Part shown: piece by piece, positions 28,947 through 34,229 of the stretch
Numbering within the stretch: position 1 is the first letter of the stretch
How the letters are laid out: each line of letters opens with the position of its first letter
IMG/VR virus record: IMGVR_UViG_3300042308_000040
Location: 1 to 34,229 of that record
From: a virus
Reading direction: 5' to 3' (one strand)
DNA: 34,229 nt
The notes under the pieces: generated by a model
Databases searched by the model: none
Told to the model about the DNA's origin: nothing
Seen by the model: the letters and a program-made list of their open reading frames with translations, nothing else
Translations under genes and position numbers: made by a program

Positions 28947-28965
28947 TTGATTCTCCTTATCTATC

Positions 28966-28982
28966 TCACTCGAATTGAGTAA
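28966..28982 (-). promoter_or_regulatory. Leader hairpin of the leftward unit
   Basis: In the leftward RNA, UUACUC and GAGUGA (loop AAUUC) form a 6-bp stem with one U-G pair just after the predicted transcription start, followed by GATAG. The rightward early leader has the same hairpin with C-G at the U-G position, so the pairing is conserved while the base changed. Confidence 0.6.
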
Positions 28983-28986
28983 GACA

Positions 28987-29016
28987 ATTATAAGTTAAGT
29001 AATCTTAATAATGCAA
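28987..29016 (-). promoter_or_regulatory. Leftward promoter with perfect -10
   Basis: Read leftward, -10 is a perfect TATAAT (28992-28987) and -35 is TTGCAT (29016-29011), 18 bp apart. The -35 is weak (3 of 6), suggesting help from an activator. The spacer holds the palindrome at 28995-29008. It would drive the genes from 28946 down to 27713. Confidence 0.65.
28995..29008. promoter_or_regulatory. Operator-like palindrome in the leftward promoter
   Basis: TTAAG-TAAT-CTTAA is a perfect 10-position dyad between -35 and -10. A second perfect copy with a different centre is in the rightward promoter at 32523-32536. A repressor bound here would block polymerase. Confidence 0.6.
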
Positions 29017-29018
29017 GA

Positions 29019-29039
29019 TATTTTATAGGGATATACCCT
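29019..29039 (+). repeat. 21-bp control element, leftward copy
   Basis: These 21 bases, with the dyad core AGGGATATACCCT at 29027-29039, are identical in inverted orientation to 32489-32509. The match continues with one mismatch to 24 bp. It sits just upstream of the -35 of the leftward promoter, the position of an activator or antitermination-loading site. The remaining stretch up to 29211 holds no gene that I can support. Confidence 0.75.
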
Positions 29040-29211
29040 TAGAAAACAGGGCAATATTTGGCAGTTACGATCAATAGGGCAGAAAGCCGCAAAACTCCCT
29101 AATTACTGCATCCTATTTTGACGGCTTAACGCCCTTAAAAAGTGGGGTACTTGCGGGCCTAGATATGTGAAGCCAAATCCGCTTTCCCCCGTTCCCGTGA
29201 AGGAACTTTAA

Positions 29212-31835: not shown

Positions 31836-32061
31836 GCCATTAAATTCAATTGCTATCATCAAACTTTTAGGTGGCCCTACCAAGGTTGCTAAATTGCTAA
31901 ATATCAGCGTTCCTGCCGTATCCATGTGGCAAAACGGGGATATACCCTACGATAAGCTGGTGATCCTAGCCGCTACCCTTGAGAAACAAAGCCACGGGCT
32001 AGTAAACCGAAAGACCCTATTTCCTGAAAGTTATAAATTAATTTGGCCTGAATTAGATTGA
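31834..32061 (+). CDS. Cro/YdaS-like helix-turn-helix regulator
   Basis: The 75-residue protein (80 if the ATG at 31819 is used) is a short XRE/YdaS-type DNA-binding protein: LGGPTKVAKLLNISVPAVSM is the helix-turn-helix, NGDIPYDKLV the turn before helix 4, and the ending RKTLFPESYKLIWPEL is a tail seen in Cro-like regulators of freshwater betaproteobacteria and their phages. It has no CI-type peptidase domain. The second ATG is preferred because a TTAACA/TAAGAT promoter would put the RNA start at it, giving a leaderless message as with lambda cI; neither start has a good Shine-Dalgarno sequence. Its coding sequence also contains the 12-base core of the control element (31937-31948). Confidence 0.8.
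   Translation: MPLNSIAIIKLLGGPTKVAKLLNISVPAVSMWQNGDIPYDKLVILAATLEKQSHGLVNRKTLFPESYKLIWPELD
31937..31948 (+). promoter_or_regulatory. Core of the control element inside the regulator gene
   Basis: GGGATATACCCT is identical to the core of the 21-bp elements at 29028-29039 and 32489-32500 (inverted). A chance 12-base match on either strand of this genome is expected at well below one (about 0.004 for even composition). An intragenic operator is one explanation, coding constraint another. Confidence 0.45.
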
Positions 32062-32120
32062 TGTATACTGTGGGGGCAGATTCGACCCTGTTTAGTGCTA
32101 AATCGGACAAGACCCTTTAG
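32061..32120 (+). other. Possible 19-codon leader ORF after the regulator
   Basis: ATG overlaps the regulator stop (TGATG) and the frame reads MYTVGADSTLFSAKSDKTL, then TAG. It runs through the 5' half of the structured RNA, so translation would disturb that fold. Expression is uncertain, as the structure may come from its own promoter at TATACT (32064-32069). Confidence 0.25.
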
Positions 32121-32198
32121 GGTTGCTTTGAGCGTTTAGGTAATGTTCCGATTCATTACTTAAGCGGGTCGAACTTAGAGCAACCTTAAGGGGTTTTT
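32076..32198 (+). ncRNA. Double-pseudoknot structured RNA candidate with terminator
   Basis: Four helices fit one fold. A 15-bp outer stem (32113-32127 with 32179-32193, two G-U) carries a 13-bp upper stem (32133-32145 with 32154-32166, two G-U) and ends in TTTTT (32194-32198). The 8-nt top loop (UCCGAUU at 32147-32153) is complementary over 7 bases to AATCGGA at 32101-32107. The 3' side of the internal loop (GGTCGAA, 32167-32173) is complementary over 7 bases to TTCGACC at 32081-32087. So both free loops pair with the upstream segment. TATACT at 32064-32069 would start an RNA near 32076. I do not recognise a known family. Function could be regulatory or enzymatic (ribozymes also use double pseudoknots). 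Confidence 0.65.
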
Positions 32199-32480
32199 CT
32201 ATTTCTGCCTAGCCCGTACTCATTGGTGTTGCTACGGTAAAGGCTGTAAATACCCCTAGAAACTACTAGCGCAATTGCGCCTCATTTAGCTGTATTGCTT
32301 GGCTACCTAAGAGAACCGTACTGTACGGATAGACCGATGATGTGATAAAGACAGACCTAGGCACGACAAAGACATCGAAGCAATATGAACCGACAAACTC
32401 AGCAAGATCGTAAATAACACCTATTCCTCATAGTAGGGATAGGTGTGTCCTCAAAATCTAGCAATCTCGTATTAAAAAAG
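32199..32480. other. Gene-free stretch with several palindromes
   Basis: No convincing ORF or tRNA is seen here. It holds a perfect palindrome GCGCAATTGCGC (32269-32280), CCGTAC-T-GTACGG (32316-32328), TGCCTAG (32206-32212) complementary to CTAGGCA (32357-32363), and a hairpin at 32417-32446. A second structured RNA, a replication origin or a packaging-related site are all possible. Confidence 0.5.
32417..32446. other. Strong hairpin before the rightward early promoter
   Basis: ACACCTATTCC (32417-32427) pairs with GGGATAGGTGT (32436-32446), 11 bp with one G-T and an 8-nt loop. There is no T-run in either direction, so it is not an ordinary terminator. Confidence 0.55.
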
Positions 32481-32488
32481 CAACACTT

Positions 32489-32509
32489 AGGGTATATCCC
32501 TATAAAATA
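32489..32509 (-). repeat. 21-bp control element, rightward copy
   Basis: Identical, in inverted orientation, to 29019-29039. It ends 5 bases before the TTGACA of the rightward promoter, the same relative place as in the leftward unit. The dyad core is AGGGTATATCCCT. Confidence 0.75.
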
Positions 32510-32513
32510 ACTG

Positions 32514-32542
32514 TTGACATACTTAAGCTACCTTAATAAACT
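32514..32542 (+). promoter_or_regulatory. Rightward early promoter with perfect -35
   Basis: TTGACA (32514-32519) and TAAACT (32537-32542, 4 of 6) are separated by 17 bp. The spacer holds the palindrome TTAAG-CTAC-CTTAA. It should start the rightward early operon at 32579 that continues across the contig ends. Confidence 0.75.
32523..32536. promoter_or_regulatory. Operator-like palindrome in the rightward promoter
   Basis: TTAAG-CTAC-CTTAA, a perfect dyad between -35 and -10, matching 28995-29008 in arms and spacing. Binding here would exclude RNA polymerase. Confidence 0.65.
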
Positions 32543-32546
32543 GGTA

Positions 32547-32564
32547 TCACTCAATAACGAGTGA
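32547..32564 (+). promoter_or_regulatory. Leader hairpin of the rightward early unit
   Basis: UCACUC and GAGUGA with loop AAUAAC form a 6-bp stem at the start of the predicted RNA, followed by GATAG and the AGGAG ribosome-binding site. It matches the leftward leader hairpin in stem, spacing and following bases. Confidence 0.6.
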
Positions 32565-32578
32565 GATAGGAGAAATAG

Positions 32579-33967: not shown

Positions 33968-34124
33968 GCAAAGGATCGAGTATTTGGCCCAATCCTACAT
34001 AGCCATAGCCCAGCGTTATAGGAACTGGGATATGGTCAAAGAATTAATCGAGCGCAATAAAGACACAGAAGCAGATGTAAAAAAACGAATAAAGGAACTG
34101 TATGCGAGAAATAGACCCGAATAA
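33954..34124 (+). CDS. Small helical early protein, 56 residues
   Basis: The ATG lies inside the end of the replication-type gene (14-nt overlap), and its stop lies 23 bases into the gene that crosses the contig ends. The product (MNSYKQRIEYLAQSYIAIAQ...) is basic and helical, with no cysteines. The overlap on both sides fits the operon style. No family recognised. Confidence 0.6.
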   Translation: MNSYKQRIEYLAQSYIAIAQRYRNWDMVKELIERNKDTEADVKKRIKELYARNRPE

Positions 34125-34229
34125 ATGTATAGACTTTATTCTTGAAAACGCTGGTAAGTACGCATCTGCCAAGGGTGAGTTAGCCCAATTAGAAACCTTT
34201 AAAAGCAGTCTAAAAGCCATAATGATGCA
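34102..34229 (+). CDS. 5' part of the gene that crosses the contig ends
   Basis: ATG at 34102 begins the 109-residue protein completed at positions 3-329 after circular closure. A GGAACTGT just before it may serve as a weak ribosome-binding site (AAAGGAA, about 6 bases upstream). Details are given under the entry at the start of the window. Confidence 0.85.
   Translation, partial: MREIDPNKCIDFILENAGKYASAKGELAQLETFKSSLKAIMM
34103..34229. repeat. Terminal direct repeat, copy 2 (circular closure)
   Basis: Identical to bases 1-127. See the first copy. Joining here restores one uninterrupted reading frame (109 residues), which supports the closure as genuine. Confidence 0.95.

Follow-up and report, generated by a model that had tools for sequence, protein, structure and literature searches.

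A phage RNA family with two covarying pseudoknots and interchangeable structured 3' modules, adjoining a Cro-type regulator gene

Small phage RNAs include phi29 pRNA, which binds the portal and of which adjacent molecules pair via complementary loops into a ring, and P4 CI RNA and c4 antisense RNA (RF01695), which are located near immunity genes. Loop contacts are also known from the ColE1 RNA I/RNA II kissing loops, where a 7-nt loop is fully paired in the contact, and two pseudoknots are used by twister and other ribozymes. GOLLD and ROOL, two structured RNAs encoded by phages, have no assigned function and contain covarying loop-loop pairs, and the loop pairs detected by covariation were later proved to be intermolecular by cryo-EM (PMC12286853). 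In GOLLD, a conserved 3' region is joined to a less conserved 5' region (PMC12286853).

The RNA described here is encoded in a 34,229-base virus record (IMGVR_UViG_3300042308_000040), which was analysed over its full length and is referred to below as the window. It resembles GOLLD and ROOL as a structured phage RNA with covarying loop pairs, but both of these are far larger (several hundred nt, compared with ~139 nt for the domain described here) and their covariance models gave no match. It shares no sequence match with phi29 pRNA and sits among early genes rather than beside packaging genes. In contrast to ColE1 RNA I/RNA II, the loop partner is a bulge of the same RNA, and no antisense RNA or replication primer was seen. 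The domain also differs from P4 CI and c4 RNAs (RF01695) by the lack of any Rfam match and of loop targets in its own contigs above chance. As the longest matches complementary to the loops in their own phage contigs equalled those of swapped controls, an antisense immunity RNA is unlikely. Tandem pseudoknot repeats preceding a toxin gene, as in type III toxin-antitoxin RNAs, were not found in the window. The first-pass annotation had recognised no known family, and this agrees with our searches: no Rfam 15 family scored above its gathering threshold in the window, matches at E values up to 10 were attributable to chance (the best, MIR5070, reached 23.2 bits where the cut-off is 100), and we found no literature describing this domain.

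Many related phages carry the RNA directly past an early regulator gene, and the neighbouring phage regulator proposed in the first-pass annotation is of the Cro type (PF14549; Table 1). Despite this P22-Cro-like gene, no CI repressor or integrase was found among the scanned genes of the window. No plus-strand ORF of at least 60 aa covers positions 32076-32480, and the next gene, which starts ~370 nt from the RNA, matched no PHROG or Pfam family. The window is bounded by a 127-base direct terminal repeat (1-127 and 34103-34229), consistent with a complete phage genome record. An 86-bp promoter-like stretch occurs in two copies (32486-32570 on the plus strand and 28961-29042 on the minus strand; 78% identical), each ahead of an early operon and each containing the palindrome GGGTATATCCC. 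The cro gene itself harbours a third palindrome (31937-31947), and these sites are possible Cro operators.

The elements of the domain are listed in Table 1. Both stems reported initially (32113-32127/32179-32193 and 32133-32145/32154-32166), the following TTTTT and the two 7-base upstream matches to the loops were found at these positions, although the first stem, described as 15 bp, is real but extends to 24 bp (P1) and includes the T run. The nested fold has a predicted energy of -52.7 kcal/mol (z -6.5), and none of 200 shuffled sequences folded equally well. When the 39 upstream bases were shuffled, a 7-bp match to the bulge arose in 0.3% and one to the loop in 0.5% of cases, and both together in 0 of 20,000. 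In diverged copies, the 5' hairpin GCAG/CTGT is replaced by other stems, e.g. ATTGAG/CTCGAT.

Table 1. Features of the RNA locus, with positions in the window.
Feature	Positions	Strand	Evidence or remark
P22-Cro-like regulator, adjoining gene	31840-32061	+	PF14549, E 7e-8
-10 box TATACT	32064-32069	+	TATACT in 83/108 copies; TATAAT, TACACT, CATAAT or similar in most others
P0 5' strand GGCAGA, approximate transcription start	32075-32080	+	pairs with 32204-32209
Alternative 5' hairpin GCAG/CTGT, loop 32080-32087	32076-32091	+	main family
PK1 5' strand TTCGACC	32081-32087	+	pairs with bulge 32167-32173
13-nt linker, length suits spanning 13-bp P2	32088-32100	+	CTG-to-PK2 distance 10-12 nt in 57/73 copies
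PK2 5' strand AATCGGA	32101-32107	+	pairs with 32147-32153
P1 5' strand, 24 bp	32109-32132	+	96.9% of cells paired, 7 pairs changed on both sides
P2 5' strand, 13 bp	32133-32145	+	96.8% of cells paired, 9 pairs changed on both sides
Apical loop, with PK2 3' strand TCCGATT at 32147-32153	32146-32153	+	loop match and covariation
P2 3' strand	32154-32166	+	covariation
7-nt bulge, PK1 3' strand GGTCGAA	32167-32173	+	94.8% of cells paired, 6/7 pairs changed on both sides
P1 3' strand, ending in T run	32174-32197	+	covariation
T5, terminator-like	32194-32198	+	conserved; T runs in diverged copies too
P0 3' strand TCTGCC	32204-32209	+	covaries with 32075-32080
3' module C, adjoining structured RNA, one of four alternatives	32210-32450 (borders approximate)	+	consensus fold

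Related copies were collected from viral contigs by neighbouring-gene and pattern searches, which yielded at least 108 distinct copies (71 after near-identical ones were dropped); the family is larger than this count, and further, diverged copies were recovered with a model of the RNA (R1). Many of the Cro-neighbour loci missed by the pattern matched R1, and the remainder gave no match, in several cases because the contig stops shortly past cro. A one-pattern scan of bacterial and archaeal genomes returned two stretches, neither of which matched R1 and which were therefore attributed to chance; as this collection held no true copy, the family was seen here in phage contigs only. Nucleotide similarity searches of phage and plasmid collections recovered short pieces or nothing, self-BLAST identified a single copy in the window, and in Cro relatives of Acinetobacter phages the next gene directly abuts cro, leaving no space for the RNA. 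In eight relatives (L003, L004, L014, L015, L021, L026, L039 and L125) other genes directly precede the RNA, the -10 box of which is retained; by eye, their products are glycosyltransferase-like, PAPS-reductase-like and methyltransferase-like proteins.

Covariation was assessed column by column in 34 aligned sequences (alignment A1), and the pseudoknot partners were compared in 75 non-redundant copies. Across the four helices counted in this way, 95.5% of cells are paired and 24 of the 50 pairs (172 cells) have changed on both sides, compared with at most 55.6% of cells paired and 33 cells changed on both sides in slid controls. Among the 75 copies, the mean number of uninterrupted Watson-Crick pairs is 7.15 for PK1 (23 distinct helix sequences) and 6.57 for PK2 (45 distinct helix sequences), whereas partners swapped between copies form 3.8 pairs (maximum 4.2). 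The outermost helix, P0, covaries from AU to GC and from GC to AU on both sides (GGCAGA/TCTGCC, AAGCGGA/TCCGCTT, TGCAGA/TCTGCA); its pairing value of 87.7% is an underestimate, because a one-base shift affects five rows of alignment A1 there. Two P1 pairs are invariant G-U (columns 47-133 and 66-114) and R1 scores 137 bits on the plus strand versus 28 on the minus strand, which together fix the strand as plus. PK1 is retained even in far relatives with little else alike, as CTGAAAC/GTTTCAG (L196), CTTGAAC/GTTCAAG (L187), GTGGAAAA/TTTTCCAC (L191) and, by eye, GGGTGGAA/TTCCACCC (L203), and reaches 8 bp in L115; PK2 is not evident in the group of L187, L196 and L202. PK1-like leads were seen by eye in two Manatee Spring phages, MW202674 (L011) and MW202520 (L211), as TTGGCGGA/TCCGCCAA and TGGCGGG/CCCGCCA after a TATAAT or CATAAT box; the automatic descriptor flagged neither. 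Homologues in which pairings break without compensation would have spoken against the fold, and PK1 is broken in a single one of 108 copies (L122, GTGATGT against ACTTCAC). L122 gives the impression of two PK1 types joined by recombination or by chimeric assembly. Since the pairings keep changing and yet both sides are almost always repaired, the fold is real, and these compensatory changes among homologous copies show that P0, P1, P2, PK1 and PK2 are all under selection. The initial proposal of a structured RNA with two pseudoknots, beyond chance expectation, is thus borne out by both the shuffles and the comparison of copies, the latter being by far the stronger evidence.

Directly after P0, four alternative conserved noncoding modules were identified (34, 22, 20 and 19 copies), all of which have strong consensus folds (z -7 to -11) with compensatory changes. 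The window carries module C, represented by 20 copies, in which 8 pairs have changed on both sides and the alifold value is -95.4 (z -7.2 relative to column-shuffled alignments), and relatives have the three other modules in this place. One of these is RF02932 (Betaproteobacteria-1), which is annotated in Rfam as an sRNA gene, reportedly goes back to Weinberg et al. 2017, and differs from the 5' domain in sequence and fold. It matches directly 3' of the RNA with 94-102 bits in L012, L021, L026, L028 and L038, and its covariance model has no match in the window. Module B (L013, L014, L019) seemingly has its own covarying loop pair, seen by eye as GTCAAG/CTTGAC against GTTGCG/CGCAAC. Of 34 apical loops, 12 were found with more than one module; the occurrence of the same 5' types with different modules indicates that 5' types and modules recombine freely, with the P0 border as the point of exchange. 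With the next ~250 bases structured and four modules interchangeable, the RNA considered here represents the 5' domain of a two-part locus of ~390 nt.

The -10 box is located 6-9 nt upstream of the GCRG core in 107 of the 108 copies (5 nt in the remaining one) and is retained when the preceding gene is a different one and cro is separated from the RNA by other genes. Its near-constant distance from P0 and its retention past inserted genes argue for an own promoter. A -35 element scoring at least 4 is present in 58% of copies versus ~21% of shuffles, and no convincing one was found in the window. The TATACT box of the first-pass annotation is therefore supported by its conservation at a fixed distance, whereas the proposed transcript of ~123 nt is incomplete, because TTTTT is followed by the covarying 3' strand of P0, a stem overlooked in that annotation, and then directly by another structured module. 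With P0 included, the domain ends near 32213 (~139 nt), and TTTTT probably does not mark a simple end of the transcript. The P1 stem followed by T5 has the conserved layout of an intrinsic terminator, and a simple terminator scan of the window did not list it.

The arrangement of the helices places constraints on PK2. Its 5' strand ends 0-6 nt before P1 in most copies, and its partner loop lies 37 bp away on a straight hairpin (~104 A), so that a straight P1-P2 and PK2 are mutually exclusive: PK2 can form only if the RNA folds back sharply, if it pairs between molecules or if it arises ahead of the long stem. As its loop strand abuts P2 without a gap in most copies, PK2 could stack on P2, with PK1 stacked beneath P2; CTG and PK2 are separated by 10-12 nt (13-15 nt when CTG is counted), a length that suits a run along the 13-bp P2. 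In a coarse rigid-helix search, P1 could be placed alongside P2 and PK2; a 4-nt gap left all pairs closed, and a gap of 0-1 nt required ~4 of them to open. We therefore dropped the notion that PK2 is impossible in cis, as in this coarse model all helices can coexist if P1 folds back.

We tentatively favour an independently transcribed, compact phage RNA that acts in trans and forms the 5' domain of a noncoding RNA gene. Its own promoter would drive this gene separately from the preceding regulator gene. PK1, P2 and PK2 would stack end to end with the 13-nt linker running along P2, and the 24-bp P1 would fold back beside this stack, yielding a compact bundle in which hardly any loop is left free. 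RNA polymerase would pass or partly stop at the T run, and read-through would join the 5' domain to one of the four structured 3' modules in an RNA of ~390 nt. This RNA might be made early, in concert with cro and the genes for recombination and replication, and might act in trans, binding a host or phage partner as a stable structured RNA; it would then be neither a ribozyme nor a ligand switch nor an antisense RNA. Several points count against this reading: the window has no good -35 element, P1 with T5 looks like an intrinsic terminator and leaves room for a role in cis, and the modelled fold-back is coarse and would require a few P1 pairs to open at gaps of 0-1 nt.

That room could be filled by a cis-acting transcription switch, which we consider rather unlikely. 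PK1, P2 and PK2 would then form first, during transcription, and delay or block P1, the stem of a terminator with T5, whereupon polymerase would continue through the 3' module towards the early operon, and P0 would exist in the read-through RNA only. Such a switch would account for the T run after P1 in every subfamily, for the covarying P0 strand beyond T5 with structured modules coming next, and for the proximity of PK2 to P1, which excludes a straight P1-P2 together with PK2. It is harder to reconcile with a -10 box exactly at the 5' end, with noncoding, swappable 3' modules and with the lack of a conserved ligand core, and the fold-back model lets all helices coexist.

By analogy with phi29 pRNA, GOLLD and ROOL, PK2 and perhaps PK1 might instead pair between molecules, giving a self-assembling structural RNA that forms rings, chains or cages. 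We regard this as improbable, since a fold-back in cis is sterically possible and PK1 and PK2 are joined by a tight linker that suits stacking in cis. In its favour, a straight hairpin does not allow PK2 to form in cis, every phage type keeps a matching pair of its own, as would be required to prevent mixed assemblies, and covarying loop pairs of ROOL and GOLLD did prove intermolecular by cryo-EM (PMC12286853). A more elaborate version, slightly more doubtful still, would be a two-domain phage RNA machine in which a loop-sealed 5' domain pairs with itself via PK2 into rings, chains or cages, carries one of four swappable 3' modules and uses a private pairing code for each phage type.

Equally doubtful is a simple strong terminator of the cro operon with pseudoknots serving merely as nuclease protection: the location after cro and the stem with its T run would fit, but a terminator needs neither two pseudoknots nor a P0 strand past the T run, nor would it have its own -10 box or be retained after unrelated inserted genes. 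Of the functions initially suggested (regulatory RNA, ribozyme or transcription switch), the ribozyme was not supported, and a self-cleaving ribozyme or ligand-binding riboswitch is very improbable despite the compact double-pseudoknot fold, because once the helices are drawn no conserved unpaired core of the kind found in twister, HDV-like and other ribozymes remains, the invariant columns lying almost wholly in helices that are free to change sequence, few unpaired bases being conserved and Rfam giving no match.

While structured phage RNAs of unknown function such as GOLLD and ROOL were already known, the RNA family with a two-pseudoknot fold and swappable 3' partners is new. As its pairings change fast yet stay matched, a few mutants can distinguish between a stable fold, a switch and self-assembly. 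With this locus, phage biology gains a large RNA family with strong support, and the orphan RF02932 gains a genomic setting as one interchangeable half of a two-part RNA.
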